From positions 1 to 23,608 of the IMG/VR virus record IMGVR_UViG_3300045538_000326: DNA of 23,608 bases; one strand, 5' to 3'. The notes under the pieces are model-generated. The model made no database searches and had not been told where the DNA came from. It worked only from the letters and a program-made list of their open reading frames with translations. The position numbers were made by a program, and so were the translations under genes. Origin of the DNA: a virus. Numbering within the stretch: position 1 is the stretch's first letter; each line of letters starts with the position of its first letter. Below, in pieces: positions 1,305-23,213 of this stretch.

Positions 1305-4300
1305 ATGGTAGAATACAAACGACTTAAACGTAATCTCATAAATATAGCTACACAATTTGTAGATAATTCTGAATTATCTCCAAATTTTTTTAATATAACG
1401 TCTATACCAAATTACTTTACAGCCGGTAAAAATTCGTTCAAAATAAAACCAAATTTTAATTATCTATCTCAAAACTATCCAATATACATAGAAGTATTGG
1501 ATGCAAATGGAAACAATGTTTTCCATCACGTAACTACTGCAGATGAAGCAGACGGAACAAAAATAGTATCTGTTTATGTTTATAGAACAGTTGCTCTCGG
1601 TAGTGGAACGATTACATTTATAGGCACTTCAAATTTTGATTCAAAATTAAATAGATTAACACAAACCGAAGTAAAACAAAACAACATTAGATTTGTTTAC
1701 AAAATTGGTGTTGATAAATTCAAACCAAATGACAATGACATTATATTTGAAAACACTCCAGAAGTTAGTATAACTGAAAAAAAGTATTCTGTTATTGAAG
1801 ATAGATTTAATGGTTCATCTAAAAAAACAACCAAAACGGGAACTGTAAGATACTCATTAGAAAGTGGAACTCCAAAATTATTTTCTCTTGGAGAAACATT
1901 TAATGACAACTATGTTGGAGCAACAATATCCTTTCCTTACTTATCTGATGAACATACACCACTTACAACATATACAACTACAAGTTTTGATTATAGTGCA
2001 AGTATAATTTCAGTTGATAATAACTATTCAATGACACTTGATAATAGATTGTCATTGATAGGAACCGATGGTGAAGTAACAGACCTAACAACATCGGAAG
2101 TTCAACCATATTTTCTTTCATACAATCAAAATTCTACTGGCAAAAATATAACACAAAATGTTAAAAATTATGCCCGTATAGATATAAACAAAATAGATCC
2201 CGCCGTTGGTCATGTTAGTAGAGTAAAAGTATTTGCTAAAAGTAAAAACGATCCAAGTGCTGATTACAAAACATTGTATGATGCAAACATTGAACCAAAA
2301 AATATATTGATTGATTCAAGTTCACTAATAATAGATTATGAAATTGGAAAATTTAGTGTTGCCGCAAATGCAACTATTGCTGGACAACCATCTACATTTT
2401 CATTAAATTCATTAAACTATTGGTCAGTAGAATCTGTAAACGGTGCACCAACACCATCAACTGCACTTTACAATACTGATAAATTTACTGGTATAGAAGC
2501 AACACTTTCTATCGGTGCATTGACTGATAATCAAGCACTTCTGATAGCACAATCTTCAAGTGTTAGCACACCCTATTACAAAGATACTTTGTATCAAGTA
2601 GATTTTGATGCATACCGATATAGACCGAGTAATGATAAAAGGGATCCAAAACTTGAAGTTTATATTTCTGGTAGTGGATTCAATGGTGATACCGAATATG
2701 GTAAGTATGTAGGAACTATCGAATTAAACAATACCGATTCTCAATTCAGTTTGAACAATAGTCTTTCAATCGCACCTGATAAAGATGGTGACGGTCACTT
2801 AAAGTTTTTAGTTCATACTGGAGTTGTTTTACAAAATATAGAAGTAAAAGAAACGGTAGAATTTGGATTTACACCAAAAAGGACAACCATATATGTTCCT
2901 ATGGATCAAAACCATAAGTTAGAATATATGGATTTCAAATTACAATACTTTAATGATACTTTACGTGAATCTAATGTTGAAACTGTAAACAATGATGTAT
3001 TTTTTGAAGGGGGAAATGTATACATCCAAGGTGATGACAATATGATTTCCGGTTCAACATTTCTATCGTCATATACACAAAGTGGCATGCAATTATATGC
3101 AAATGCAAATAATACACCGGGTTCGTCTGGATCTGCTATAAACCCATATCAATATCAAGGTGTTCAAAATGCAATAAACAATCCAAATAATCCATCAAGT
3201 TTTGGGTGGGGTTTAACAACCGGAAATCCGTATAATCAAGCAGCGGGAACTTTTTCACAAAATAGTATAAACATGATAAATGAATGTGGTTCCACATTCA
3301 ATTTTGGATCAACACCTTCAAGTTTTGATTTGTTTATATTGGGTTCAAGTTCTGAATTTCTTTTGGGTTGGAGTGGTTCATATAATCCTGTTTTTGGAAG
3401 TGGTGGAACCGGAGGGGGTGGTAGTTGTAACAATGGAACTTGTGGTGAATCTTATATTAGATGGGATGGGTGTAAAGTAATAATAGAAAATGCTGTAATA
3501 AATGGTTCTACAAGTGGTGCAGGTAGTGCGGGAACACACGGAACAAGTGGAACTTCTGGAACATCTGGACAAACAGGTTCAAGTGGAACATCTGGTCAAA
3601 ACGGTTCATCTGGAACATCTGGACAAAACGGTTCATCGGGTTCTTCTGGAACATCCGGTCAAACGGGTTCAAGTGGAACATCCGGTCAAACGGGTTCAAG
3701 TGGAACATCTGGAAATTCTGGTTCTTCTGGATCATCCGGAACTTCTGGAGAAAACGGTTCATCCGGAACTTCTGGAGAAAACGGTTCATCTGGTAGTAGT
3801 GGAACTTCTGGTATAAGTGGTTTACAAGGAAATTCTGGAACATCTGGAAGTAGTGGAAGTTCTGGAACATCTGGATCTAATGGAACATCTGGAACTGCTG
3901 GACTTTCTGGTGATAAATACACAACAACATCAACAACTTCAAATACAATAGGAACTGGATCAAAAACATTTACAGTTGATACGGGATTACAATTAAGCGT
4001 AGGTCAGAATGTAATAGCTGCATATAATAGTTCTAACAAAATGGAAGGTGATATTACTTCCTATAATAGTGGAACTGGACAATTAGTAATAAATGTAACA
4101 ATAACAACTGGTAGTGGAACGTATTCAACTTGGAGTGTATCTCTATCTGGTTCACCTGGTCCACAAGGCACCGGTGGAACATCTGGAACATCTGGAACAT
4201 CTGGAACATCAGGTTCATCTGGAACATCTGGAACATCTGGACAAAATGGTTCATCTGGAACGTCTGGACAAAATGGTTCATCCGGAACATCGGGTTCATC

Positions 4301-5735
4301 TGGAATAACTGGTATAGCTGGGACATCCGGAAGTAGCGGAAGCAGTGGAACTTCTGGATCATCTGGAACTTCTGGAACTTCTGGAATAAAAGGACTTGAT
4401 GGTTCATCGGGAACTTCTGGATCAAGTGGAACTTCTGGTCAAAGTGGATCTTCAGGAAGTTCTGGAACATCTGGTAGTAGTGGTAGTAGTGGAATGGGAG
4501 GAACTGCAGGAACATCGGGAAATACTGGAACTGCTGGTTCATCTGGAACTTCTGGTGCAAATGGAACTTCTGGAACTTCTGGCCAAAATGGAACTTCTGG
4601 AACATCTGGATTTAATGGTTCATCCGGAACATCAGGTTCATCTGGAACTTCTGGATCATCTGGATCATCTGGATCATCTGGAACTGCTGGATTATCTGGT
4701 GACAAATACTCAACAACGTCTACTGATGTAATAGATTTAGATACCGTAAGTGGAAATATAACTATAACGATTGGAACTGGATTATCTTATATTGCTGGTC
4801 AAAACATAGTTGTTTCTTATGATGCTAATAATAAAATAATAGGAACAGTTGTAACATACACATCCGGAACGGGTTCACTAACATTTACAGTAAATGAGGT
4901 AATTGGTAATGGAACATATAGTGTTTGGAGAGTTTCGATTGCGGCTCTTAATGGAACATCTGGAACTTCTGGATCATCAGGAACATCTGGTAGTAGTGGA
5001 TCATCAGGAACATCTGGTAGTAGTGGTTCATCTGGAACTTCTGGAACTTCTGGAACCTCTGGAATTTCAGGTTCATCTGGAACTTCCGGAATAGATGGAA
5101 CTTCTGGATCATCCGGAACATCTGGTCAAAGAGGGACTTCTGGAACATCTGGAACATCCGGTAATTCAGGAACTTCTGGATCATCTGGAACTTCTGGATC
5201 ATCTGGAACTTCTGGATCAAGTGGAACTTCTGGCTCATCAGGAACATCTGGTTCATCTGGTTCTTCTGGTAATAGTGGAAGTAGTGGTTTAGATGGAACA
5301 TCGGGAATTTCTGGAACATCTGGTAGTAGTGGTTCATCTGGAACATCCGGAACTTCTGGAACCTCTGGAGCAAGAGGTGTGGATGGCATAAACGGATCAT
5401 CTGGAACATCTGGTTCATCTGGAACAGCTGGAGTTACCGGTTCATCAGGAACATCTGGTTCTTCTGGAATCACCGGAACATCTGGAACCAGCGGTAATTC
5501 TACTGCTAAAGCCGGCAATATACAAGCTATAAATTTTACGGGATTACCAAGAACAGCTGCCGTAACATTTGGTACATCATTTAGTGATGCAAACTATGCA
5601 GTAACGGTTACAGGTGAAGACCAAAGAACATGGACAATTCAAGCCAAAACAGCAGCAGGTTTTACTATAAATTCAAATGCAAATGATGCATTGACTGGAC
5701 CAACATATTGGATTGCTATTCCGTATGTATCATAA
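1305..5735 (+). CDS. Giant collagen-like tail fibre / virion structural protein (1476 aa)
   Basis: Residues 1-739 are a beta-rich, low-cysteine region with no family I can name, presumably the virion-attachment part. Then come three Gly-X-Y arrays (about 130, 184 and 180 residues) in which X and Y are almost always Ser or Thr, with some Gln-Asn, Gln-Thr or Glu-Asn. They are separated by two related domains of about 79 and 84 residues (from Asp870 and Asp1133, both opening DKY[TS]TTST). The last 80 residues (from about 1397) form a compact domain containing GEDQRTWTIQAKT and INSNAND, a type I recognise at the C-terminus of phage fibres and would take as a trimerisation or receptor-binding tip. 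The length, repeats and company of other fibre genes support a tail-fibre role. The ATG is one base after the preceding stop. Function is inferred from architecture, not from a full-length homologue. Confidence 0.85.
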   Translation: MVEYKRLKRNLINIATQFVDNSELSPNFFNITSIPNYFTAGKNSFKIKPNFNYLSQNYPIYIEVLDANGNNVFHHVTTADEADGTKIVSVYVYRTVALGSGTITFIGTSNFDSKLNRLTQTEVKQNNIRFVYKIGVDKFKPNDNDIIFENTPEVSITEKKYSVIEDRFNGSSKKTTKTGTVRYSLESGTPKLFSLGETFNDNYVGATISFPYLSDEHTPLTTYTTTSFDYSASIISVDNNYSMTLDNRLSLIGTDGEVTDLTTSEVQPYFLSYNQNSTGKNITQNVKNYARIDINKIDPAVGHVSRVKVFAKSKNDPSADYKTLYDANIEPKNILIDSSSLIIDYEIGKFSVAANATIAGQPSTFSLNSLNYWSVESVNGAPTPSTALYNTDKFTGIEATLSIGALTDNQALLIAQSSSVSTPYYKDTLYQVDFDAYRYRPSNDKRDPKLEVYISGSGFNGDTEYGKYVGTIELNNTDSQFSLNNSLSIAPDKDGDGHLKFLVHTGVVLQNIEVKETVEFGFTPKRTTIYVPMDQNHKLEYMDFKLQYFNDTLRESNVETVNNDVFFEGGNVYIQGDDNMISGSTFLSSYTQSGMQLYANANNTPGSSGSAINPYQYQGVQNAINNPNNPSSFGWGLTTGNPYNQAAGTFSQNSINMINECGSTFNFGSTPSSFDLFILGSSSEFLLGWSGSYNPVFGSGGTGGGGSCNNGTCGESYIRWDGCKVIIENAVINGSTSGAGSAGTHGTSGTSGTSGQTGSSGTSGQNGSSGTSGQNGSSGSSGTSGQTGSSGTSGQTGSSGTSGNSGSSGSSGTSGENGSSGTSGENGSSGSSGTSGISGLQGNSGTSGSSGSSGTSGSNGTSGTAGLSGDKYTTTSTTSNTIGTGSKTFTVDTGLQLSVGQNVIAAYNSSNKMEGDITSYNSGTGQLVINVTITTGSGTYSTWSVSLSGSPGPQGTGGTSGTSGTSGTSGSSGTSGTSGQNGSSGTSGQNGSSGTSGSSGITGIAGTSGSSGSSGTSGSSGTSGTSGIKGLDGSSGTSGSSGTSGQSGSSGSSGTSGSSGSSGMGGTAGTSGNTGTAGSSGTSGANGTSGTSGQNGTSGTSGFNGSSGTSGSSGTSGSSGSSGSSGTAGLSGDKYSTTSTDVIDLDTVSGNITITIGTGLSYIAGQNIVVSYDANNKIIGTVVTYTSGTGSLTFTVNEVIGNGTYSVWRVSIAALNGTSGTSGSSGTSGSSGSSGTSGSSGSSGTSGTSGTSGISGSSGTSGIDGTSGSSGTSGQRGTSGTSGTSGNSGTSGSSGTSGSSGTSGSSGTSGSSGTSGSSGSSGNSGSSGLDGTSGISGTSGSSGSSGTSGTSGTSGARGVDGINGSSGTSGSSGTAGVTGSSGTSGSSGITGTSGTSGNSTAKAGNIQAINFTGLPRTAAVTFGTSFSDANYAVTVTGEDQRTWTIQAKTAAGFTINSNANDALTGPTYWIAIPYVS
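3522..3911 (+). repeat. Collagen-like Gly-X-Y array 1 of the first fibre gene
   Basis: About 130 codons with glycine at every third position; typical triplets are GTS, GSS, GQN, GQT and GEN. Synonymous codons are well mixed (TCT, TCA, TCC, TCG, AGT), so the protein repeat is much more regular than the DNA repeat. Confidence 0.93.
3912..4148 (+). repeat. Inter-array domain, copy 1 (79 codons)
   Basis: Encodes a non-collagenous domain opening DKYTTTST and closing TYSTWSVSLS, with VDTGL, VGQN and SGTG in between. It is homologous to the copy at 4701-4952. From memory this domain type occurs between collagen-like segments in other phage fibres, perhaps as a trimer-registering knot. Confidence 0.8.
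4149..4700 (+). repeat. Collagen-like Gly-X-Y array 2 of the first fibre gene
   Basis: About 184 codons of Gly-X-Y. It opens with GSPGPQ, which holds the only prolines seen in the three arrays; the rest is chiefly GTS, GSS and GQN triplets. Confidence 0.93.
4701..4952 (+). repeat. Inter-array domain, copy 2 (84 codons)
   Basis: Opens DKYSTTST and closes TYSVWRVSIAAL. It shares the AGQN/VGQN, SGTG and GTYS motifs with the copy at 3912-4148 but has diverged clearly at DNA level, so the duplication is old. Confidence 0.8.
4953..5492 (+). repeat. Collagen-like Gly-X-Y array 3 of the first fibre gene
   Basis: About 180 codons of Gly-X-Y, mostly GTS and GSS, with a few charged interruptions such as GQR, GAR and GVD-GIN. 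It leads directly into the C-terminal domain. Confidence 0.93.
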
Positions 5736-10722: not shown

Positions 10723-13308
10723 GTGAAAAAAGTTTTGTTTATTGTCCCCCATCTTTCAACGGGTGGACTGCCTCAATATACACTATCACTAATAAAAAAA
10801 ATAATGAACGATGTTGATGTCTACTGTATAGAGTATTCTATGATAGCAGACATTTTTGTTGTTCAAAGAAAACAAATAGTTGAATTATTAGGCGATAAGT
10901 TTTATTCTCTTAAAAACGAAAAAGAAGAATTGAATGAAATTGTAGATAAAATACAACCAGATATAGTTCATTTACAAGAACTTCCAGAGTATTTTATGTC
11001 TGGATATGTTGCTAATGATTTATATTCTATTGATAGAAAATACACTATCGTTGAAACTTCTCACGATTCTTCTTTTGATACAAAAAAGAAGTTATATTTT
11101 CCAGATTATTTTGCACTAATATCCGAATACCAAAGACAAAATTTTTCAAAATTAGATATACCGATACAGATTGTTGAATCAGACATAGAGTATAAAGAGA
11201 GAGGAGATAGAAGAACTGGTTTGGAAAAATTAGGTTTGAATCCAAGTCTAAAACACGTTTTGAATGTTGGTTTATTTTCGCCAAGAAAAAATCAAAGAGA
11301 GATTTTTGATTATGCAAAAAATATGTTAAACTATCCAGTGCAGTTTCATTTTGTTGGTAATCAAGCTTCAAATTTTGAAAACTATTGGTCTCCGTTGATG
11401 AAAGATATTCCATCTAATGTTAAAATTTGGGGTGAAAAATCTAACGTTGATGACTTTTATTCTTGTATGGATTTATTTCTATTTACATCAAGGGGTTCGG
11501 AACATGACAAAGAAACAAGTCCACTTGTTATACGAGAGGCAATAGGGCATGGTATTCCGTCTTTAATATACAATCTTCCAGTTTATATGGATATGTATAA
11601 CAAATATGACATAATAAATTATCTTGATTTTGAAAACAAGGAAAAAAATCTATCCTTGATAATAGACAAACTAGGATTTTCAACCGATCATATAGACAAA
11701 AAATTAGTTGAAGATACAATATCTGAAAGTAGATTTACAGTTGAATATGATAATAAAGAAAATAAAATTACATATTCATATAATCGTGATTTAGAAAATG
11801 TAATAATTTCTGTAAAAGATATAGATTCTAATGTTGTTATGTGGTCGGTGAAACATGATAGATACGAAAATAATCAAAAATTTTGGACAATACCTATACC
11901 AAAAAATTATTACGATTGTGAAACCGAACCTACTTTTGGTGGTTTTAATGTTGAGATATACTCGAATGGTAAGTTTTTGGATAGCAAACGTATTCGTATA
12001 AAAAATCCAAGTGTTGAAAAACCATTTATACATCTTAAAAATACAACAGAACCTACTTTTTTCAATTACAATGAATTTTTTATTGATAAGATATATGATC
12101 CTTATCTAAAAGGAAAAAATTTTAATACGGTTGTTGATGTTGGTGCAAATGTTGGTATGTGGATAGAATACATACGAAGTGTATCAAACGTAGAAAAAGT
12201 TTATGCAGTTGAACCAAATACAAATGCATTGAAAACTTTAAGGGATTCTTTTAATGATATAAATGTTGTAGATGCCGCATTGCATTACGAAGATGGTAAA
12301 TTGAGTTTGTATACCCATGATAATAACTCAACTGTATCTTCGATAGAAAATCACTCTACATTTTCCTCAACATATTCGGTTGATGCAATAACTTTGAAAA
12401 CATTTGTAAAGCAAAATAAAATTGAAAAAATAGATTTACTTAAAGTTGATATAGAATCTGCTGAATACGATTTGTTTAATTCATTTGATTCCGAAGATTT
12501 TTTAATAATAGATAATATATTGGTAGAATATCATTTGCTTGGAAACCGATATATGAAAGATGTTTTTGATTTATCATCAATGTTAGAAGAAAATGGATAT
12601 AAAACTAATATGAGAAATATGAACTCTGTTGGTGGTTTTATCTTTGCAACAAAAAATAAAAAGTCTACCGTTGGTAATGATGAAGATATTATTCGTGTTT
12701 TAGATTCAAACCCTTGTCCCGAAAAAAGAGATATTGCAAATCTTGTAAACCGTTTATATCCAAATGGTGTTGGTATAGAGATAGGTGTTCTTCGTGGCGA
12801 TTACTCAAAAATAATTTTAGATAGATGGCACAATGGGACTTTATACATGGTAGATACTTGGAGACATATTCCAGAGTATATCGATTTGAATGGTAGGGAT
12901 GACGAATATCATTATGAGTGTATGATACAAACTGCTAAATCTATAAAAGACCATCAACATCGTGCTCACATGATACGAATGGATAGCGTTAAATGTGCTG
13001 AACTTTTTCCGGATGAATACTTTGATTTCATTTATATTGACGCAGATCATTCTTATGAGGCCGTCCAAAGAGATTTACAAGTTTGGTGGCCAAAGGTAAA
13101 AAAGGGAGGATTGTTTACAGGAGATGATTATATTCCAGAAGACGGAGATATTTGGTTGATTAACAATAATGATGGGACAAAAAAATATGCTGGGAAATTT
13201 GGTGTTCGTAAGGCAGTAAATGAATTTGCCGATGAACATAAATTAAAAATATATTCAACAACACAAGAACCATATTGGAAACAATGGTATACTTTCAAAC
13301 CTTTTTAA
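10723..13308 (+). CDS. Three-domain GT-B glycosyltransferase / FkbM methyltransferase / Methyltransf_24 fusion (861 aa)
   Basis: Residues 1-330 are a GT4-like glycosyltransferase: KVLFIVPHLSTGGLPQYT start, VLNVGLFSPRKNQ hinge and an E-X7-E motif at Glu264/Glu272 before GHGIPSLIYN. Residues 335-450 are a beta-rich linker. Residues about 455-650 match FkbM-type methyltransferases: VVDVGANVG SAM site (470-478), YAVEPN, and LLKVDIESAE (573-581, Asp576). Residues about 675-861 are a second class I methyltransferase, Methyltransf_24 type: EIGVLRGD (686-693), MVDTW, YIDADHSYEAV (771-781), KKGGLFTGDDY. One polypeptide could therefore add a sugar and methylate it or a neighbouring group twice; acceptor and sugar are unknown. 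GTG start is supported by AAAGG. It heads a cassette with two more glycosyltransferases. Confidence 0.87.
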   Translation: MKKVLFIVPHLSTGGLPQYTLSLIKKIMNDVDVYCIEYSMIADIFVVQRKQIVELLGDKFYSLKNEKEELNEIVDKIQPDIVHLQELPEYFMSGYVANDLYSIDRKYTIVETSHDSSFDTKKKLYFPDYFALISEYQRQNFSKLDIPIQIVESDIEYKERGDRRTGLEKLGLNPSLKHVLNVGLFSPRKNQREIFDYAKNMLNYPVQFHFVGNQASNFENYWSPLMKDIPSNVKIWGEKSNVDDFYSCMDLFLFTSRGSEHDKETSPLVIREAIGHGIPSLIYNLPVYMDMYNKYDIINYLDFENKEKNLSLIIDKLGFSTDHIDKKLVEDTISESRFTVEYDNKENKITYSYNRDLENVIISVKDIDSNVVMWSVKHDRYENNQKFWTIPIPKNYYDCETEPTFGGFNVEIYSNGKFLDSKRIRIKNPSVEKPFIHLKNTTEPTFFNYNEFFIDKIYDPYLKGKNFNTVVDVGANVGMWIEYIRSVSNVEKVYAVEPNTNALKTLRDSFNDINVVDAALHYEDGKLSLYTHDNNSTVSSIENHSTFSSTYSVDAITLKTFVKQNKIEKIDLLKVDIESAEYDLFNSFDSEDFLIIDNILVEYHLLGNRYMKDVFDLSSMLEENGYKTNMRNMNSVGGFIFATKNKKSTVGNDEDIIRVLDSNPCPEKRDIANLVNRLYPNGVGIEIGVLRGDYSKIILDRWHNGTLYMVDTWRHIPEYIDLNGRDDEYHYECMIQTAKSIKDHQHRAHMIRMDSVKCAELFPDEYFDFIYIDADHSYEAVQRDLQVWWPKVKKGGLFTGDDYIPEDGDIWLINNNDGTKKYAGKFGVRKAVNEFADEHKLKIYSTTQEPYWKQWYTFKPF

Positions 13309-13320
13309 TGGAAATATATT

Positions 13321-14139
13321 ATGGTAGTATTTTTGTATAGTGATAAAAATTGTGAACATCAAGCGATATGTTGTATCAAATCATTGACACATAAAATAAC
13401 GGATGATGTAAAAATAGTTTATTACACAATAGGATTTGATAGTGATTTTCAATTTAAGAATCTCCACAAAATTAGAATTGAATTGAAACCAGAATATCCA
13501 ACATTTCATTACTATAAATCAGATTTATCATTACTTACTATGAATCTGTTTCCAAATGAACACTATATTTTTACAGATACAGATGTTCTTTTTTCTCGAA
13601 GATTTGATTTTAGTAAAACAACTCATATTGAAAATTATCCAATAGCAAGTTATGGTCCACATGAATATCCATTTATGTATTATGAAGAAAATGGATCTAG
13701 AATAATTTTTAATGAATTACCTTTAATGAAGTATTTTAATGTTGAAAAAAGAAGTCAAAGGTATGTTTGGTCTTGTTTCTATTCATTCAATCCAAGTTGT
13801 AAAGACTTTTTTGAAGAATACATTTCAATATGTAAAAATAAATACCTTATGGATAAAAGAAAAGACTATTTTCCTTATGCAGATGAGACACCTTTTAATA
13901 TATGTCTGTGGAAAAGAAATGCTACTAAAAACTATGAATTTGGTTTTGTCAATACTCATCGCTTGGAAACAGTTAAAGCAGTAGAAAACGGTATATCAAA
14001 TAAAACTTTTGAGAATGCAGTTGATAGACTTGGTAATGAGTGGGAATACGTTGTTGATTCTGAAAAGGTTTTGATATATCATGGATTCAAAGAAAAAGAT
14101 AGTATGGTTGAATCGTTAAATTATTTGATAAACATATAA
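13321..14139 (+). CDS. GT-A-fold glycosyltransferase, GT8-like (272 aa)
   Basis: The N-terminus alternates beta strands and helices as in nucleotide-sugar binding GT-A folds (VVFLYSDKNCEHQAICCIKS). A DXD metal/UDP-sugar motif appears as FTDTDVLFS (Asp86-Thr-Asp88). Later segments WSCFYSFNPSC, YADETPFNICLW and a C-terminal LIYHGF histidine resemble the acceptor side and the metal-binding histidine of GT8-like retaining transferases. Exact family, donor and acceptor cannot be settled by eye. It starts 12 bases after the preceding gene, with a weak leader (TGGAAATATATT) like that of the RCC1 gene, and is followed at 12 bases by another glycosyltransferase, so all three are probably one transcript. 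Confidence 0.7.
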   Translation: MVVFLYSDKNCEHQAICCIKSLTHKITDDVKIVYYTIGFDSDFQFKNLHKIRIELKPEYPTFHYYKSDLSLLTMNLFPNEHYIFTDTDVLFSRRFDFSKTTHIENYPIASYGPHEYPFMYYEENGSRIIFNELPLMKYFNVEKRSQRYVWSCFYSFNPSCKDFFEEYISICKNKYLMDKRKDYFPYADETPFNICLWKRNATKNYEFGFVNTHRLETVKAVENGISNKTFENAVDRLGNEWEYVVDSEKVLIYHGFKEKDSMVESLNYLINI

Positions 14140-14151
14140 TTGGTTTTATTT

Positions 14152-16254
14152 ATGAAAATTGCACAAGTAAATTTAGGTTTACTTCCAATACCACCTAACT
14201 CGTGGGGAGCTGTTGAAAAAATAATTTGGGACTATAAAATTGAATTAGAAAAACTCGGTCATACTGTGTCTATACCATATTCAAATGAAGTTGAAAAAGA
14301 TATGTATGATATTGTTCATGTTCATGTATGGAATCATGCATTGGAAATGTATGAAAAAGGAATACCTTACATATTTACTTGTCATGATCATCATTTATAT
14401 TTGAATGGGAAAGATACAAAAATGTATCAAGATAATTTAAGAGCAATGAGATTGGCTCAAATTGCATTTGTTCCTGCAAAGTATTTAGTTGATTATTTTG
14501 ATAATGTTCCTGTTTATTTGGAACATGGTGTTAGAATAGATAATTTTGTTGAAAATACACCGAATAAAAAACCAAGATTGTTATGTGTTGGTAATAATGG
14601 TCTGGCTAATGATGATTTATTTGATAGGAAAGGATTTAGATATGCAATAGAAGCTGCTAAAAAATTAGATATGAATGTAACAGTTGTTGGTCCAACAAAT
14701 GTAAACAAAAAATTTTTTGAACATAACAAAGATTTGACAGAAGATAATGTGACTATTTTATACGATTTAGATGATAAAAATTTAATAGACACATTCAGTA
14801 AACATGATATTCTTGTTCATGCAACATCAGTAGAAGCCGGTCATCCTCCACTTACGATACTAGAAGCGGCGGCATCTGGATTACCAGTATTAACAACAGA
14901 TTGTTCTGGTGATTTACATACAACTTTGATAAATAGAGATTCAAATGATGTTGTTGAAAAAATAAAATATGTAATGAAAAATTACAATCTTGAAAGAGAA
15001 AAAACTATTACTAGTGTTAAACAATTTGATTGGAAAAATGTTGTGAAAAAAATGAATAAAACATACGAAAAGGTTGTTACTAATGACATGAGAAGTTCAA
15101 TTCTCAATGTATATGATTCTGTTAAGAAAGTTAATTTTGAAAACAAAATAAATTTTTCTTTCAAAGAAGGTGCAATGGTAGAAATTACCGGACAAAAACA
15201 AGGAATTTATACAATATCATTCATAGATGACGATACAAACGAAGTTCTTTATCAAAATGATATTCTTACAAATTCTTGGGCAAAAACAAATAGAAGATAT
15301 TTTACAAATTGGAGAGTTGTTGTAACAGAAAACGGTGTAAAAAAGGCAGAACACAAATTAAATTTGAAGGGTAAAAAAGTTCTAATAAAATTAGATTCAA
15401 ATTGTCTTGGTGATACAATAGCTTGGTTTCCATATTTTGAAGAATTTAGAAAAAAACACCAATGTGATTTGTATGTGTTTACTTTTAATAATAAATTATT
15501 TGAAGGTAAATATCCAAAAATAACTTTTCTAAAAACAGTAAATGAAATACTTGCATTGGAAGATGTTTATGCGTCATACCTGATTGGTTGGTATTTTGAC
15601 ACAAAAAAAGGATATGATGATACTATAAATAAGATTCCTGGAAACAAAATACCACTTCAACAAGCTGCTTCTGATATTTTAGGATTGGATTTTGTTGAAA
15701 TAAAACCAAAATTAAAAGATTTGCCAGAATATATTACACCCAAACCTTATATTTGTATTGCAACAAATTCTACTGCTCAAGCTAAATTTTGGAATAATCC
15801 AACGGGTTGGCAAGAATTGGTTGATTATGTAAAATCGAAAGGGTATGACGTTTACCTTTTATCCAAAGAAGAAGATGGACACATGGGTAATAAACAACCA
15901 AATGGTGTAGTAAAAATCAGTAATAAAACACTTGAAGAAATTGGATCCATATTAAAGGGTTCAAAACTTTTTGTTGGTCTTGGTAGTGGTTTAACTTGGT
16001 ATTCTTGGGCACTAAATGTTCCAACTATATTGATAAGTGGGTTTTCTCAACCGTTTCAAGAAATGAAAGAGGGTATTACTCGTATAATAAATAATGATGT
16101 TTGTCATGGTTGTTTTGCTAAACATCTTTTTGACAAAGGAGATTGGAATTGGTGTCCAGAACACAAGGGAACAAATAGACAGTTTGAATGCACAAAGTTT
16201 ATTACTTTTGACATGGTTAAACCACATATTCAAAAAATACTAAAACTATCTTAA
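14152..16254 (+). CDS. GT4-like glycosyltransferase fused to TibC/Aah-like (BAHT) O-heptosyltransferase (700 aa)
   Basis: Residues 1-310 form a GT4-like GT-B domain: PPNSWGAVEKIIWDY, DIVHVHVWNH, RKGFRYAIEAAK and EAGHPPLTILEA (Glu228, Glu238) before SGLPVLTTD. Residues about 325-410 are a beta-rich segment (VEITGQKQGIYTISFID) typical of the N-terminal part of bacterial autotransporter heptosyltransferases. Residues about 410-700 match that GT9-related family: GDTIAWFPY (420-428), NSTAQAKFWNNPTGW (539-553), GLGSGLTWYSWAL (609-621), then a four-cysteine finger Cys651, Cys654, Cys668, Cys680 with GDWNWCP and RQFEC. Studied members (TibC, Aah) are iron-binding oligomers that move heptose from ADP-heptose to serines of autotransporter repeats. 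Start is ATG 14152; an in-frame TTG at 14140 overlaps the preceding stop region and lacks a site. Target is unknown; the flanking Ser-rich fibres are candidates. Confidence 0.88.
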   Translation: MKIAQVNLGLLPIPPNSWGAVEKIIWDYKIELEKLGHTVSIPYSNEVEKDMYDIVHVHVWNHALEMYEKGIPYIFTCHDHHLYLNGKDTKMYQDNLRAMRLAQIAFVPAKYLVDYFDNVPVYLEHGVRIDNFVENTPNKKPRLLCVGNNGLANDDLFDRKGFRYAIEAAKKLDMNVTVVGPTNVNKKFFEHNKDLTEDNVTILYDLDDKNLIDTFSKHDILVHATSVEAGHPPLTILEAAASGLPVLTTDCSGDLHTTLINRDSNDVVEKIKYVMKNYNLEREKTITSVKQFDWKNVVKKMNKTYEKVVTNDMRSSILNVYDSVKKVNFENKINFSFKEGAMVEITGQKQGIYTISFIDDDTNEVLYQNDILTNSWAKTNRRYFTNWRVVVTENGVKKAEHKLNLKGKKVLIKLDSNCLGDTIAWFPYFEEFRKKHQCDLYVFTFNNKLFEGKYPKITFLKTVNEILALEDVYASYLIGWYFDTKKGYDDTINKIPGNKIPLQQAASDILGLDFVEIKPKLKDLPEYITPKPYICIATNSTAQAKFWNNPTGWQELVDYVKSKGYDVYLLSKEEDGHMGNKQPNGVVKISNKTLEEIGSILKGSKLFVGLGSGLTWYSWALNVPTILISGFSQPFQEMKEGITRIINNDVCHGCFAKHLFDKGDWNWCPEHKGTNRQFECTKFITFDMVKPHIQKILKLS

Positions 16255-16255
16255 T

Positions 16256-16289
16256 TCCACATATTTATTGGTATTGATATAAACGTGGA
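16256..16289 (+). promoter_or_regulatory. Imperfect RNA hairpin over the ribosome binding site of the giant fibre gene
   Basis: TCCAC (16256-16260) pairs with GTGGA (16285-16289), and TTTAT (16264-16268) with ATAAA (16279-16283), around a 10-base loop; ATA and C form the internal bulge. The 3' arm covers most of the GGAG site, so folding could reduce translation. Not a terminator: no T-run follows. Confidence 0.35.
16261..16268 (+). promoter_or_regulatory. ATATTTAT motif, candidate promoter element before 16298
   Basis: The octamer lies 29 bases before the TTG start and at the end of the glycosyltransferase cassette. If it is a -10 element, much of the hairpin at 16256-16289 would not be in that transcript. 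Confidence 0.35.
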
Positions 16290-16290
16290 G
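16287..16290 (+). promoter_or_regulatory. Shine-Dalgarno GGAG supporting the TTG start at 16298
   Basis: GGAG, 7 bases before TTG 16298. With the conserved WKKLVVSGS N-terminus this fixes TTG as the start. Confidence 0.65.
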
Positions 16291-16297
16291 TTCTATT

Positions 16298-19200
16298 TTG
16301 TCTAATTGGAAAAAACTTGTAGTAAGTGGTAGTGGAGCACATCTTGCATCTGTAACTGCTTCTAATGGTTCTATCATATCCGGTTCACTCACCATGAGTG
16401 GATCTATAGTAAATGTTGATTACATAGATTTCATAGAAGCAACCGAAAATAAAGTTCCTGCAGAACTTCCAGGACGAATTTATTATGATAGTGAAGAAGA
16501 TGCTTTAACCGTTTATAGTAATATAGCAGATACCCAATTATATGTTGGTCAAGAAGAACATTATCTTGTAAAAAATAATTCAGGTACAACAATAAATGTT
16601 GGACAGTTAGTTATGTTTTCTGGATCAATCGGTAATTCTGGAAGATTAACCACCCAACTATGTGACCAAACAAAGTTGCCATCATCAGTTTATGTGATGG
16701 GAATTGCCGCTAATACAATGAATAACGGTGATGATGGTTTTGTAATTAACTTTGGTAAAGTAAAGGGTATAGATGCAACAGGAACTCCTGTTAGCCAAAC
16801 ATGGAATAATGGTGATATATTGTATGTTCACCCAACAATTCCTGGTGCTCTAACAAATCAAACACCATCCGAAGGCAAATGGAAACTGATAGTTGCTGCC
16901 GTAGTAAATAACACTGCAAATGGAACTATATTCGTAAGATTAACACCTGCAAATAACATCGGTGAATTGGATAATGTAACCGATAATAGTAGCACAAACG
17001 GTGACTTGCTGATTAAAAGCGGTTCGGTTTGGAAAAATTCAAAACAATTAACTGGTTCGTATGGTGTAACTGGTTCGATGGACATTACTGGTTCACTGAT
17101 AATAAACGGAACAAGTTATACTGCGGCAAGTTCTGGAACAAGTGGAACTGCAGGTTCATCCGGAACTGCAGGTTCTTCTGGAACTGCAGGTTCTTCTGGA
17201 ACATCTGGCTCATCCGGAACTGCAGGTTCTTCTGGAACTTCTGGTGCAAATGGAAGTTCTGGTTCATCTGGAAGTAGTGGAACATCTGGAGTATCTGGAT
17301 CATCTGGTTCATCTGGAACCTCTGGTGCAAATGGAAGTAGTGGTAGTTCTGGAACAAGTGGAACTGGTTTTACAACGGTATCAAATGCTGCTGATAACAG
17401 AATACTAACATCCGATGGTAGTTCAAATGCTGCTGTTGCAGAAAGTAATTTAACTTTTAACGGTTCAACATTGACCGTTACCGGTGATGCTGTTATTACC
17501 GGAAAAATAACTGCTCAAGAATTTCATACCGAATTTGTATCTTCATCTATATTATTTGAAAGTGGTTCAACAAAATTTGGTGATACATTAGACGACTTGC
17601 ATCAAGTAACCGGTTCAATGAGTATTACCGGTTCCTTGATAATAAATGGAACAAGTTATACTGCTGCTACATCGGGAACATCTGGAACTTCTGGTGCTAA
17701 TGGAAGTAGTGGAACATCCGGTTCATCTGGAACTTCTGGTTCATCGGGAACATCTGGTTCATCTGGAACTTCTGGTTCATCGGGAACATCTGGTTCATCT
17801 GGAACTTCTGGTGCTAATGGTGCTAATGGTTCATCGGGAACATCGGGTTCATCAGGAACATCTGGTTCATCAGGAACTTCTGGTGCTAATGGTGCTAATG
17901 GTTCATCGGGAACATCTGGTTCATCGGGAACATCTGGTTCATCTGGAACTTCTGGTGCTAATGGTGCTAATGGTTCATCGGGAACATCGGGTTCATCAGG
18001 AACTTCTGGTGCTAATGGAACATCGGGTTCATCAGGAACTTCTGGTGCTAATGGAACATCGGGTTCATCAGGAACTTCTGGTGCTAATGGAACTTCTGGT
18101 TCATCTGGTTCATCAGGAACTTCTGGTGCTAATGGAACTTCTGGTTCATCAGGAACATCGGGTTCATCTGGAACTTCTGGTGCAAATGGAAGTAGTGGTA
18201 GTTCTGGAACAAGTGGAACTGGATTTAATACTATAAACGGTCCTTTATCTGGAAGAGTCCTAATATCCAATGGAACAACTAATGCTGCTACTGCTTCGGT
18301 AAATTTAACATTTGATGGATCAACTTTAACCGTAACTGGAAATACAGTTGTTAGTGGAAGAATAACTGCTCAAGAATTTCACACACAATTTGTTTCCGCT
18401 TCAATTCTTTTCAGAAGTGGTTCAACAAAATTTGGTGATACATTAGACGATATTCACCAAATAACTGGTTCAATGTCAATAACTGGATCACTTCAAATTC
18501 CTCGATACGCAAGCAATCCAACTGCTTTACTCGGTGGAATTTACTACAATACAGGTGATAATAACATTTATCGTTCAAACGGATCAACTTGGTCATCAGC
18601 TGCTGGATCAAGTGGAACTTCTGGTTCATCTGGAACATCAGGTTCATCTGGAACTTCTGGTGCTAACGGTTCTTCGGGAACATCGGGAGTAAATGGTGCA
18701 GCTGGTTCATCAGGAACTTCCGGTTCTTCTGGAACTTCTGGTTCATCAGGAACTTCTGGTGCTAATGGAACATCGGGTTCATCAGGAACTTCTGGTGCTA
18801 ATGGAACTTCTGGTTCATCCGGAACATCTGGTGCTAATGGTGCTAATGGAACTTCCGGTTCATCTGGAACTTCTGGTGCTAATGGTGCTAATGGAACTTC
18901 CGGTTCATCAGGAACATCTGGTGCTAATGGTGCTAATGGTTCATCGGGAACATCTGGTTCATCCGGAACTTCTGGTGCTAATGGTGCTAATGGAACATCG
19001 GGTTCATCAGGAACTTCTGGTGCTAATGGAACTTCTGGTTCATCTGGTTCATCTGGAACATCTGGTGCTAATGGTGCTAATGGAACTTCTGGTTCATCTG
19101 GTTCATCTGGAACATCTGGTGCTAATGGTGCTGCTGGTGCTGCTGGTGCTGCTGGTTCTTCTGGAACTTCTGGTTCATCTGGAACATCTGGAAACACCGG

Positions 19201-19756
19201 TGTTTCTGGATCAAGTGGAACATCAGGAACATCAGGAACAGTAACATTATCTGGAACAACAGACAATGGTGTTATTACACTAAACGGTTCATCACCTAAT
19301 GCAACGGTAGAATCAAACTTAACATTTGATGGATCAACATTGGTGCTTACAGGATCAATGTCATTAAGTGGTTCCAAAGAAATTCAATATCCAACATTAG
19401 TTTCCTATACAGAAAAAATAAATATAGTATCTTCAAGTAATGCTGTTAGCGGTAATCTAACAATAAACTATCGTGATGGAAATGTTATTTTACATCATCA
19501 CAATGCAAGTTTAACAAATGTTACATTTACAAATGTTCCTGCTGCTGGTTCTGCTGCTAGTTTAACTTGGATGGTTAAAGGAACTAATGGATTATATGGT
19601 TTAAGTCCAGGTTCCGAAGTTCAATGGGAAAGTGGAAATGCTCCAAGTATACCATCAACAGATAATGAGATTTCAATTTTTACTTTAATGACAATAGATG
19701 GTGGTTCAACATGGCTAGGTATAGTTGTTGCTGAAAACCAAGCTAATTTAACGTAA
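16298..19756 (+). CDS. Second giant collagen-like tail fibre protein (1152 aa)
   Basis: The N-terminus MSNWKKLVVSGSGAHLASV is shared with the protein at 8549. Residues about 50-245 include a domain I recognise from phage fibres (EEHYLVKNNSGTTINVGQLV, MGIAANTMNNGDDGFV, WNNGDILYVHPT). Three Gly-X-Y arrays follow (77, 182 and 212 residues), separated by two modules of the form LTFxGSTLTVTG / ITAQEFHT / FGDTLDDxHQxTGS, homologous to the repeats in the protein at 6983. The last 170 residues (INYRDGNVILHHHNASLTN, ASLTWMVKG, DGGSTWLGIVV) are a common phage fibre C-terminal domain, probably the distal tip. TTG start is supported by GGAG at 7 bases. It lies directly downstream of the glycosyltransferase cassette and upstream of an RCC1 propeller. 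A tail-fibre role is strongly suggested by architecture. Confidence 0.85.
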   Translation: MSNWKKLVVSGSGAHLASVTASNGSIISGSLTMSGSIVNVDYIDFIEATENKVPAELPGRIYYDSEEDALTVYSNIADTQLYVGQEEHYLVKNNSGTTINVGQLVMFSGSIGNSGRLTTQLCDQTKLPSSVYVMGIAANTMNNGDDGFVINFGKVKGIDATGTPVSQTWNNGDILYVHPTIPGALTNQTPSEGKWKLIVAAVVNNTANGTIFVRLTPANNIGELDNVTDNSSTNGDLLIKSGSVWKNSKQLTGSYGVTGSMDITGSLIINGTSYTAASSGTSGTAGSSGTAGSSGTAGSSGTSGSSGTAGSSGTSGANGSSGSSGSSGTSGVSGSSGSSGTSGANGSSGSSGTSGTGFTTVSNAADNRILTSDGSSNAAVAESNLTFNGSTLTVTGDAVITGKITAQEFHTEFVSSSILFESGSTKFGDTLDDLHQVTGSMSITGSLIINGTSYTAATSGTSGTSGANGSSGTSGSSGTSGSSGTSGSSGTSGSSGTSGSSGTSGANGANGSSGTSGSSGTSGSSGTSGANGANGSSGTSGSSGTSGSSGTSGANGANGSSGTSGSSGTSGANGTSGSSGTSGANGTSGSSGTSGANGTSGSSGSSGTSGANGTSGSSGTSGSSGTSGANGSSGSSGTSGTGFNTINGPLSGRVLISNGTTNAATASVNLTFDGSTLTVTGNTVVSGRITAQEFHTQFVSASILFRSGSTKFGDTLDDIHQITGSMSITGSLQIPRYASNPTALLGGIYYNTGDNNIYRSNGSTWSSAAGSSGTSGSSGTSGSSGTSGANGSSGTSGVNGAAGSSGTSGSSGTSGSSGTSGANGTSGSSGTSGANGTSGSSGTSGANGANGTSGSSGTSGANGANGTSGSSGTSGANGANGSSGTSGSSGTSGANGANGTSGSSGTSGANGTSGSSGSSGTSGANGANGTSGSSGSSGTSGANGAAGAAGAAGSSGTSGSSGTSGNTGVSGSSGTSGTSGTVTLSGTTDNGVITLNGSSPNATVESNLTFDGSTLVLTGSMSLSGSKEIQYPTLVSYTEKINIVSSSNAVSGNLTINYRDGNVILHHHNASLTNVTFTNVPAAGSAASLTWMVKGTNGLYGLSPGSEVQWESGNAPSIPSTDNEISIFTLMTIDGGSTWLGIVVAENQANLT
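17135..17365 (+). repeat. Collagen-like Gly-X-Y array 1 of the second fibre gene
   Basis: About 77 codons; triplets GTA, GSS, GTS and GAN. A TCTGGAACTGCAGGTTC-type block is repeated near-perfectly at its start. Confidence 0.92.
17507..17635 (+). repeat. FGDT/HQxTGS module, copy 4 (43 codons)
   Basis: ITAQEFHTEFVSSS to HQVTGSMSITGS; same scheme as the 45-codon units at 7331, 7766 and 8225. Confidence 0.85.
17675..18220 (+). repeat. Collagen-like Gly-X-Y array 2 of the second fibre gene, with 72- and 36-base units
   Basis: About 182 codons. Copies of a block opening GGTGCTAATGGTGCTAATGG start at 17810, 17882 and 17954, exactly 72 bases (24 residues) apart. Two identical tandem 36-base units (GANGTSGSSGTS) fill 18008-18043 and 18044-18079. 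Confidence 0.93.
18362..18490 (+). repeat. FGDT/HQxTGS module, copy 5 (43 codons)
   Basis: ITAQEFHTQFVSAS to HQITGSMSITGS; the same length as copy 4 and very similar to it. Confidence 0.85.
18605..19240 (+). repeat. Collagen-like Gly-X-Y array 3 of the second fibre gene, with 45-base units
   Basis: About 212 codons. Blocks opening GGTGCTAATGGTGCTAATGG start at 18830, 18875 and 18920, exactly 45 bases (15 residues) apart. The 36-base unit of array 2 recurs from 18758. A short GAA triplet run (GAAGAAGAAG) lies near 19125-19150. Confidence 0.93.
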
Positions 19757-19780
19757 TACTTTAATTTTTGGTAATATATT

Positions 19781-20935
19781 ATGTTAGCAGATAGATTAAG
19801 AAATTCACCTATAAGAGATTATCTTGTTTCATATAATTTATATTCTTGGGGTGAGAATGGTAGTGGTGAACTTGGTATAGGTAACACCACAGATAAAAGT
19901 TCACCAAACCAAGTTGGTTCTGAAACAAGATGGACAGATATATCATCAGGAACTCACGATGACGTTGGAAAACAACATTCTCTTGCTATAGATAATAACC
20001 AAAGATTATGGGCATGGGGTGAGAATGGTAATGGTCAGTTGGGTATAGGTAACACAACTGATAAAAGTTCACCAATACAAGTTGGAACCGATAAATGGTT
20101 AAAAATTAGTGCTGGTTACGCAGTTAGTCATGGTATAAAGCATGATAATACCCTATGGGGCTGGGGATATTGGAACAACAGCAATATCGGTAGTGGATCA
20201 TTTTCTGATGTAACAACCCCATCTCAGATATTAAGTGGTTCGGGCGATTATTGGATAGAAGTTTCAAGTAGATACAATCATTCATTTGCTATTACTAATG
20301 TGGGTGTGCTTTTTACATGGGGAACTGATCTATATGGTGAAACGGGATTGGGTTATGGTCCACCAGTATTGACAACCATTTCAACGCCAGAGACAGTTAC
20401 ACCAACTCCTGAGTTAGGATGGAAAATAGCTTCTGCTGGTAATCGATTCAGTCTTGCAATACAAAATGATGGAACACTTTGGGCATGGGGCGAAGATACC
20501 TATGGTCAGATTGGACTGAATGGCGGCGGTAGTGGAATGGGATATGAAAGTGTTCCAGTTCAAGTTGGTGCACTAACAACATGGAAAAATGTATCAGCCG
20601 GAGGCGGACATTCTTTAGCATTAAAAAATGATGGAACTATTTGGTCATGGGGATATAATGGTAATGGTCAATTAGGACATGGTGATACAACGGATAGAAG
20701 TTCACCAACACAAATAGGAAGTGCAACTGATTGGGTTGATATAAGTGCTGGATATGAGTTTTCTCTGGCACTCAAATCCGATGGAAGTTTGTATGCTTGG
20801 GGATTGAATAATATAGGACAATTAGGCGATGGATCAACAACTACTAGATTAACACCAAGACAAATTGGAACAAACACTATAAAATATAGAAATATAGATG
20901 CTGGTTTTGATTATTCTATGGGATTACGAGAATAA
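19781..20935 (+). CDS. Seven-bladed RCC1-repeat beta-propeller protein (384 aa)
   Basis: Seven RCC1-type blades are visible, each with an aromatic-Ser/Ala/Gly/Thr-Trp-Gly core: Trp23, 79, 128, 180, 236, 290 and 340, spaced 49-56 residues. The motifs are of the form LWAWGENGNGQLG followed by SSPxQVG and WxxISAG/HSLAI. Seven blades make one complete propeller, with essentially nothing else but a 19-residue N-terminal lead. Eukaryotic RCC1 is a GTPase exchange factor, but bacterial and phage versions more often serve as binding scaffolds. Between two fibre/glycosylation genes a virion adhesin or host-protein binder is the likeliest role. Blades 1 and 2 are recently duplicated at DNA level. ATG 19781 has a weak leader TTTGGTAATATATT, like that at 13321. 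Confidence 0.87.
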   Translation: MLADRLRNSPIRDYLVSYNLYSWGENGSGELGIGNTTDKSSPNQVGSETRWTDISSGTHDDVGKQHSLAIDNNQRLWAWGENGNGQLGIGNTTDKSSPIQVGTDKWLKISAGYAVSHGIKHDNTLWGWGYWNNSNIGSGSFSDVTTPSQILSGSGDYWIEVSSRYNHSFAITNVGVLFTWGTDLYGETGLGYGPPVLTTISTPETVTPTPELGWKIASAGNRFSLAIQNDGTLWAWGEDTYGQIGLNGGGSGMGYESVPVQVGALTTWKNVSAGGGHSLALKNDGTIWSWGYNGNGQLGHGDTTDRSSPTQIGSATDWVDISAGYEFSLALKSDGSLYAWGLNNIGQLGDGSTTTRLTPRQIGTNTIKYRNIDAGFDYSMGLRE

Positions 20936-20939
20936 AGAT

Positions 20940-20944
20940 AAAGG
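20940..20944 (+). promoter_or_regulatory. Ribosome binding site deciding the start at 20952
   Basis: AAAGG, 7 bases before ATG 20952. The same frame is open upstream to 20898 but overlaps the RCC1 gene and has no site, so 20952 is preferred. Confidence 0.6.
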
Positions 20945-20951
20945 TTTTGTT

Positions 20952-21965
20952 ATGGTAGTAAAAGAAGAAATGCATCCGTTAGATATTGCATTGCAGTTTT
21001 GTATAAATGGAAATCCAACTGAAAGTGAAAATATATTGAAATCATTACCCAATAATGATCCAAGAGTGCTTTTTAATTTAGGATGGCATGAAATGCGCCA
21101 TGGAAATCTTAAAAAAGGTTTTGAATATATGAATTGTGGTCGTTTCATAAATGTATTCGGACTACCTGCACTTCCTGGAAAGATATGGAAAGACGAATCA
21201 CTTGAAAACAAAACGCTTCTTTTCAGATGCGAAGGTGGTTACGGTGATCAAATACTTAATTTTCGTTTTGCTAAAAGATTTCAAGAAATGGGTGCAAGGG
21301 TTTTAGTATCATGTGCACCAGAATTGAAAGCATTATTCTCCCGTCATGGATTTATCTGTGTTGATAACGAAGTAATAATGTGTGCACATTATGATTATTG
21401 GGTGCCTGCTATGTCAGCTGCATACGTTTTGGATATAGAATATGACAAATTAGATGGATCTGCATATATTTTTCCAAATAATCCATTAAATCTTTTTTCA
21501 AATGAAAAAAAATTAAAAGTAGGTATTCGTTGGAGTGGAAATCCTGAGTTTGAACACGAACAACATAGAAGATTTCCTCCGGAACTAATGATAGACTTAC
21601 ACAATACATCAAATACAACATTTTATTCACTTCAACGTGATAGTAACACAAAAAATGGTCTTCCATTTTCAGATATGGCAGATAAAATGAAAAGTTGGGA
21701 TGATACGGCAAACATAATTGCGGGTTTAGATTTAGTAATCACTTCATGCACTTCTATTGCTCATCTTGCCGCTGCTATGGGCATTCCAACGTGGATAGTT
21801 GTTCCAATAATGCCATATTATACATGGTCTTATCCGGGTGATAAGAGTTTTTGGTATAATTCCGTTACATTATTCAGACAGGAAGAATATGGAAATTGGG
21901 ATAAACCTTTCGATGATATAAAAAAAGAGTTAATTAAACTTGCTAATAACAAAACTTTTTTGTAA
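20952..21965 (+). CDS. TPR-containing GT9/GT41-like glycosyltransferase (337 aa)
   Basis: The N-terminal 80 residues look like one or two TPR helical pairs (PLDIALQFCINGNPTESENI, DPRVLFNLGWHEMRHGNLKK). A GT-B transferase follows with the phosphate-binding-type start EGGYGDQI (94-101), KVGIRWSGNPEFEHE in the middle, and ITSCTSIAHLAAAMGIP (His271) near the end, then LFRQEEYGNWD. This order is that of bacterial TPR-glycosyltransferases related to GT9 heptosyltransferases and GT41 O-GlcNAc transferase-like proteins. It is therefore a fourth sugar-transfer gene in the window and the second with a heptosyltransferase-like fold. TPRs often bind the protein acceptor, which fits a protein-glycosylating role, but donor and acceptor are unknown. 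Spacing of 16 bases to the RCC1 gene suggests one transcript. Confidence 0.75.
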   Translation: MVVKEEMHPLDIALQFCINGNPTESENILKSLPNNDPRVLFNLGWHEMRHGNLKKGFEYMNCGRFINVFGLPALPGKIWKDESLENKTLLFRCEGGYGDQILNFRFAKRFQEMGARVLVSCAPELKALFSRHGFICVDNEVIMCAHYDYWVPAMSAAYVLDIEYDKLDGSAYIFPNNPLNLFSNEKKLKVGIRWSGNPEFEHEQHRRFPPELMIDLHNTSNTTFYSLQRDSNTKNGLPFSDMADKMKSWDDTANIIAGLDLVITSCTSIAHLAAAMGIPTWIVVPIMPYYTWSYPGDKSFWYNSVTLFRQEEYGNWDKPFDDIKKELIKLANNKTFL

Positions 21966-22469: not shown

Positions 22470-23213
22470 ATGAATAATAAAATCTTAAAACTAATAAAAG
22501 AAATGAATCTTGCCATATTCAATGAAAATGAATTGGTAGATAAAGACGTTCTTGTAATTTATCCTGGTAAATTTCAACCAATGGCAATTTATCATCGTGA
22601 AGAATATGAAAGAATTTGCCGTAAGTTTGATAAAGATAATGTGTATATTGTTACCGATGATGTTACGGATCCAATAGAAAAACCATTGACCTATGACGAA
22701 AAGTTTGCAATTATGCGTCGTCATAATGTAAAACATATTCATAAATCAAATACACCGTTTCATGCAACAAATGTTATTGAACAATTTGATGGTGATTCAA
22801 CTATTCTAATTTACGCGGTAGATAAAGCTGATGTTTCTAAATTAAAAGATTACAAAAGGTTAATGAAATGGAATGGTAGTAGTAAACTACCATACAAAGA
22901 TATTCAGAATCCGTATGTTTATTACATGATAACAAATCATGTTCGATATGACATTCCATCATTTGGCGAAATGAATCCCAAATCAATTCAAAAGGCATTA
23001 AGTGATAGAGAAGCAAAATTATCGGAATTGAAATCTCGTTTCATTTCTATATTTGGTTGGTTTGATGCTGATATATTCAATATGGTTATCAGTAAATTCA
23101 ATAGTAAACGTGGAAAAATAAAAGAAGATAACAAAGATAAAAATGGTTTAAGACCATTACACATGATAACAAGAAAATTTTGGAATAAAGTTTACAACGA
23201 AATAATAAAGTAA
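22470..23213 (+). CDS. Nucleotidyltransferase-fold (cytidylyltransferase/NMNAT-like) protein (247 aa)
   Basis: VLVIYPGKFQPMAIYHREEY (27-46) has the first strand and G-[KR]-F-Q-P signature of the HIGH-type nucleotidyltransferase superfamily (NMN adenylyltransferase, cytidylyltransferases). VYIVTDD, PLTYDEKFAIMRRH and TILIYAVDKAD follow in the expected order. The HxGH site is atypical: the second histidine is kept (His42) but the first is replaced and the Gly is Tyr. Proteins of this type occur in T4-like environmental phages, where their substrate is not established. The C-terminal 90 residues (SRFISIFGWFDADIF, GLRPLHMITRKFWNKVYNEI) are helical and unassigned. It starts 3 bases after the preceding stop. 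It could make an activated sugar or cofactor, or be a structural derivative of the fold. Confidence 0.7.
   Translation: MNNKILKLIKEMNLAIFNENELVDKDVLVIYPGKFQPMAIYHREEYERICRKFDKDNVYIVTDDVTDPIEKPLTYDEKFAIMRRHNVKHIHKSNTPFHATNVIEQFDGDSTILIYAVDKADVSKLKDYKRLMKWNGSSKLPYKDIQNPYVYYMITNHVRYDIPSFGEMNPKSIQKALSDREAKLSELKSRFISIFGWFDADIFNMVISKFNSKRGKIKEDNKDKNGLRPLHMITRKFWNKVYNEIIK

Follow-up and report, generated by a model that had tools for sequence, protein, structure and literature searches.

Putative glycosylation of proline-free, collagen-like tail-fiber arrays by a TibC-type enzyme cassette in a T4-like aquatic phage

A T4-like aquatic phage, a freshwater bacterial virus, very probably coats its tail fibers with sugar. 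The putative modification is attributed to genes at positions 10723 to 16254 of IMG/VR record IMGVR_UViG_3300045538_000326, the whole of which is the 23.6-kb stretch of DNA that was analyzed (the window). We propose, with considerable confidence, that these genes form a protein O-glycosylation cassette and that the serine-rich, proline-free arrays of the two flanking fibers are its acceptors. The reading of the genes as such a cassette is based on the enzyme family, the intact residues of the enzyme, its co-occurrence with the arrays, joint absence of the two, adjacency in bacteria, and gene fusions.

In the window, an SbcC-like gene is followed by an unbroken series of tail-fiber genes on the plus strand. 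Fiber gene A (1305 to 5735; 1,476 amino acids) and fiber gene B (16298 to 19756; 1,152 amino acids) encode the proposed acceptors. Between them, on the same strand, lie three sugar genes, at 10723 to 13308, 13321 to 14139, and 14140 to 16254. The gaps here are 0 to 43 bp, which suggests one transcription unit. All of the open reading frames on which an initial, sequence-only reading was built were present where it had placed them. Its starts 14152 and 20952 fall on in-frame ATGs within the open reading frames listed here at 14140 and 20898, and each is likely to be the start of its gene.

The arrays are seven Gly-X-Y tracts comprising 957 codons, 489 in fiber A (3522 to 3917, 4176 to 4490, 4500 to 4706, and 4953 to 5501) and 468 in fiber B (17135 to 17359, 17675 to 18214, and 18605 to 19243). 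Ser (55%) and Thr (22%) dominate the X and Y positions, from which Pro is absent, and Ser occupies 76% of the Y positions. Ser, Thr, Asn, Ala, and Gln together account for 94.5% of the X and Y residues, in agreement with the initial description of about 960 array codons in which nearly every residue other than Gly belongs to this set. Both TCN and AGY codons are used for the array serines. The unbroken Gly-X-Y tracts are long, as in collagen-like proteins, the longest reaching 61 and 71 triplets, compared with at most 5 to 6 in 500 residue shuffles of the two fiber proteins. Thus, the length of the arrays is far beyond chance. A triple helix is the putative fold of these proline-free tracts.

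The product of the gene at 14140 to 16254 consists of a GT4 glycosyltransferase domain (residues ~1 to 310) fused to a GT9/TibC-like domain of the TibC/Aah O-glycosyltransferase type (residues 331 to 704; nucleotides 15130 to 16251). TibC is the structurally solved O-heptosyltransferase of an Escherichia coli autotransporter. The TibC match region comprises the C-terminal 374 residues of the product. NCBIfam model TIGR04414 (Aah/TibC) scored 292 bits, above its curated cutoff of 200, and the structure-database match was to TibC (4rap; E 6e-64) over residues 336 to 700. The Pfam family for the N-terminal beta-barrel (TibC_1st) scored 22.3 bits, below its cutoff of 27; the alignment to TibC spans the barrel region.

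In TibC, D110 is the catalytic base, T226, K230, and W305 belong to the donor site, and R286 contacts the adenine of ADP-heptose (PMC4358343). The window enzyme has the catalytic Asp (D425), T545, K549, W620, and the iron-finger cysteines C655, C658, C672, and C684. All 36 viral relatives, the window included, retain the counterparts of TibC D110, T226, K230, and W305 along with the iron-finger cysteines; all four cysteines (TibC Cys339, Cys342, Cys358, and Cys370) are present in 39 of 39 viral and 69 of 69 bacterial enzymes. Because these residues are kept, the C-terminal domain should be a protein O-glycosyltransferase that works in the TibC-like mode. The position of TibC Pro300 is Gly in the window enzyme, and that of Arg286 is Ile; Arg is found there in 2 of 39 viral and 57 of 69 bacterial enzymes. 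Since the adenine-contacting, ADP-specific Arg is missing from 37 of the 39 viral enzymes, ADP-heptose should not be assumed to be the donor, and heptose as the sugar finds no support.

Some viral loci (L043, L050, and L078; G147 and G156) have a second, shorter TibC-type copy (~290 amino acids) beside the full one. This copy is without the N-terminal barrel region and in one case has an in-frame stop. In an uncultured very large phage (LR756501.1, 735 kb; locus L475), an array open reading frame adjoins GT4 and GT4-TibC-type genes, and the enzyme is among the few viral ones with Arg at the 286 position.

The gene at 10723 to 13308 has profile matches to a GT4 glycosyltransferase, an FkbM methyltransferase, and Methyltransf_24, and is without a counterpart in array-less relatives; we propose that it is a putative glycan extension and O-methylation gene. 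Family searches assigned no family to the product of 13321 to 14139 from its sequence. Its AlphaFold model (pLDDT 86) matches GT-A galactosyltransferases (E 4e-10), and its homologues keep a DxD motif (D86, D88) and an HGxK motif (254 to 257). As modeled, this product is a GT-A-fold glycosyltransferase. Homologues of this product frequently occur as fusions with the TibC-type enzyme, and in other phages GT4, GT-A, and methyltransferase domains are all found fused with that enzyme, which fits a shared pathway. The glycosyltransferase, FkbM, and Methyltransf_24 domains bear out the initial description of the region as having four sugar-transfer genes, one of them with two methyltransferases.

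Phage glycosyltransferases are described, in work cited in PMC12619734, as often acting on modified bases. It is nevertheless extremely unlikely that the cassette enzymes glycosylate phage DNA, as in T-even-like DNA hypermodification. The cassette is located in the tail-fiber region, its key domain resembles TibC and includes an iron finger, and domain searches found no base-hydroxylating gene in the window.

The sequence-only reading had suggested a survey of phage genomes for co-occurrence of the enzyme with Ser/Thr arrays, and the two were found together far above background. A Ser/Thr-rich array was present within 10 kb on either side of 25 of 48 nonredundant enzyme loci, compared with 8 of 87 tail loci without the enzyme (p 9e-8). 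On contigs of at least 60 kb, arrays were present in 23 of 26 with the enzyme (24 of 26 by a looser count) versus 0 of 10 controls, and on contigs of 20 to 60 kb in 8 of 18 versus 4 of 38. When contigs were selected by their arrays, the enzyme was found in 21 of 50, versus 2 of 50 controls. Among array-selected contigs of at least 60 kb, 14 of 18 had the enzyme and 4 did not. Contig fragmentation lowers all of these viral figures, and since the controls were contigs of other tail-bearing phages, shared ancestry may explain part of the contig-level association. The pairing is not strict, as the enzyme is present without an array in G044 (162 kb) and G051 (84 kb). No difference in array composition was seen whether or not the contig encoded the enzyme.

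Close relatives of the phage were defined as contigs sharing core genes (e.g., g6983 at 75 to 92% and the cytidylyltransferase-like gene at 84 to 91%). The cassette and arrays are both present in the window, G001, G007, G010/G029, G011, G012, G015, and G017, and also in the fragments L347 and L367. Neither visible fiber has an array in G008/L365 and G018, fiber B is array-less in L341 and L349, and the cassette is cleanly absent from all of these. In the cassette-less relatives, the array-less fiber B comes immediately after LamG or g9773, except that one unrelated open reading frame lies between them in one case. In G086/L468 the cassette lies beside an array-less fiber B, and fiber A is off the contig. 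On the trees, no more than one or two independent changes of cassette state can be counted among the close relatives, too few for a sign test, and the comparison taken alone is suggestive. In the SbcC tree, supported branches show three or more changes in the array state of fiber A. Switches of fiber A between the array type and RCC1-propeller or poly-Gly types were observed (G003, G004, G008, and G016 versus G005/G013; loci L286, L287, L293, and L302 versus L288 and L299) in phages whose SbcC is nearly identical.

The pairing extends to bacteria. In a phylogeny that combines viral with bacterial enzymes, the TibC branch, with 50 bacterial loci, is apart from the rest. A gene with Gly-X-Y or (G-S/T-S/T)n repeats was near the enzyme at 13 of 19 bacterial loci outside the TibC branch, some of which may be phage-derived contigs, versus 0 of 50 loci within it (p 7e-10). 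Most of the array genes at these 13 loci were within 1.2 kb of the enzyme. For example, in Methylobacter the gene for a 287-amino-acid secreted (GTSGTAG)n protein is 44 bp upstream of the enzyme gene. Secreted proteins or lipoproteins that are largely (G-S/T-S/T)n are encoded beside an array-branch TibC-like gene at L478, L479, L483, L491, L492, and L524, and some bacterial partners are small lipoprotein-like proteins that extend scarcely beyond the repeat. The TibC-branch neighbors, at the four loci scanned, are AIDA-type autotransporters. In a follow-up of 201 genomes from the order of Methylobacter, an array gene was next to the enzyme at 6 of the 8 array-branch loci and at 0 of the 5 TibC-branch loci, and an array-branch enzyme was encoded in 5 of 9 genomes with a (GT[ST])4 pattern versus 3 of 192 without it.

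These bacterial units bear on whether the cassette and the array fibers are simply exchanged together as one tail module, with the acceptor being a non-array part of a fiber or another virion protein. We consider such hitch-hiking quite improbable. Fiber B adjoins the cassette, which makes a joint swap possible, and independent changes among the close relatives are few. However, fiber A, with several conserved genes between it and the cassette, still changes state with it where both are visible. Furthermore, the same pairing is found in phages that are not related and in two-gene units of bacteria in which the partner is scarcely more than an array.

It is also unlikely that the cassette remodels the host surface (LPS or O-antigen) against superinfection. 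The key domain is nearest to a protein O-glycosyltransferase, above the curated cutoff, the presence of the enzyme tracks the Ser/Thr arrays, and the array-branch enzymes of bacteria adjoin genes for secreted (GTS)n proteins, even though LPS gene sets typically include GT4, GT9, and FkbM genes and a host-surface role was proposed for the host-recognition-cluster glycosyltransferases of pelagimyophages, which are pelagic T4-like phages (PMC7029224). For such a role, the glycosyltransferase gene at 20898 to 21965 on the plus strand, which is kept regardless of arrays, is the more plausible candidate.

That gene encodes a GT9-type GT-B protein whose N-terminal segment consists of helical repeats. 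The protein matches GT9 weakly by sequence, and structure comparison indicates a GT-B fold nearest to TibC, WaaF, and WaaC in the PDB. The gene, as 20952, had been counted as the fourth transferase of the system, but it was rejected as a cassette member because it is kept at ~74% identity in relatives that lack both arrays and cassette. It is regarded here as a neighbor outside the proposed system whose product may modify the host surface or another part of the virion. A cytidylyltransferase-like gene at 22470 to 23213 was considered as donor maker for the cassette but is mostly 81 to 91% conserved in close relatives, whether or not they have arrays. Of the original suggestion that the phage decorates its own fibers, the link between cassette and arrays is upheld by viral contigs, array-less relatives, and bacteria; membership of 20898/20952 and heptose as the sugar are not.

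In the proposed O-glycosylation pathway, the TibC-type domain (15130 to 16251) would act in the cytoplasm, adding the first sugar to array serines while the fibers assemble or earlier. Extension of the glycan would fall to both GT4 domains, the fused one and the second one, and to the GT-A enzyme, and the FkbM-type methyltransferase(s) would O-methylate it. The glycan would hydrate the proline-free triple helix and make it more stable. We infer that the arrays serve as the acceptor in this phage, and likewise the residue modified, the order of the steps, the function of the modification, and its benefit to the phage. A point against the proposal is that in the partner of TibC the modified residue found was serine, not threonine, and the known acceptors are beta-helical autotransporters (PMC4358343). 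Glycosylation is described as stabilizing at least one collagen that has been studied (Bann et al. 2000, as cited in PMC3368898), which suits arrays with no Pro. A wider proposal, which we modestly favor, is that a TibC-family branch found in aquatic phages and in some bacteria has O-glycosylation of proline-free (Gly-Ser/Thr-Ser)n collagen-like arrays as its dedicated role, with a donor that in phages is probably not ADP-heptose, and that the sugar replaces (hydroxy)proline in stabilizing the helix of phage fibers and bacterial secreted proteins.

The closest known system is that of TibC/Aah (BAHT; TIGR04414), in which the enzyme is a dodecamer with ADP-heptose as donor and Ser as acceptor. 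The catalytic domains are homologous over their full length, with the Asp, Thr, Lys, Trp, and four Cys residues kept, and in both systems the enzyme gene adjoins that of a repetitive Ser-rich partner. In contrast, the window enzyme is phage encoded, fused to GT4, joined by GT-A and FkbM genes, and on a separate branch of the tree, with Ile for the adenine-contacting Arg286 and Gly for Pro300. Its partner is a Gly-X-Y fiber, and no AIDA-type beta-helical autotransporter was found in the window. The mycobacteriophages Che8, Corndog, and Myrna are reported to glycosylate their own virion proteins (Freeman et al. 2023, via PMC12363180 and PMC12619734). These systems, compared by description only, are similar in that phage-encoded glycosyltransferases act on the phage's own virion, as is predicted by homology for the window; the targets described in those accounts are capsid and tail-tube proteins, with no TibC-type enzyme or collagen-like acceptor. 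Collagen-like exosporium glycoproteins of the BclA type and the mimivirus collagen glucosyltransferase L230 are further cases in which Gly-X-Y proteins of microbes or viruses are glycosylated (PMC8968730, PMC9614988). However, BclA is a spore protein, and L230 hydroxylates lysine and attaches glucose to it, resembling, as described, a human collagen transferase, whereas the window combines a TibC-family enzyme with proline-free repeats rich in Ser. A search of the open-access literature found no account of TibC-type enzymes in phages or of (GTS)n fibers that are glycosylated.

Tail-region glycosyltransferases of aquatic phages are usually taken for modifiers of LPS or DNA. If the proposal is correct, a widespread set of these enzymes glycosylates the virion itself, and the common (Gly-Ser/Thr-Ser)n repeats of freshwater phage fibers serve as glycosylation scaffolds. 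The TibC family would have a second class of acceptor, and there would be a natural collagen that is proline free and stabilized by sugar. The enzyme-substrate pair would be small enough for a direct test, as exemplified by the secreted repeat protein and single enzyme of Methylobacter.

The proposal is also testable in a cultured phage with the same layout, Microcystis phage Mel-JY01 (PP395634, 190 kb), whose SbcC is 40% identical to that of the window. Mel-JY01 encodes an FkbM-TibC-type fusion and has a 1,016-amino-acid array open reading frame with 174 triplets. Its homologue of fiber A spans the ends of the deposited record, which was opened inside the fiber gene. The array open reading frame is unannotated (L474, PP395634.1 1 to 3049; L477), and two hypothetical coding sequences are annotated on the opposite strand instead.
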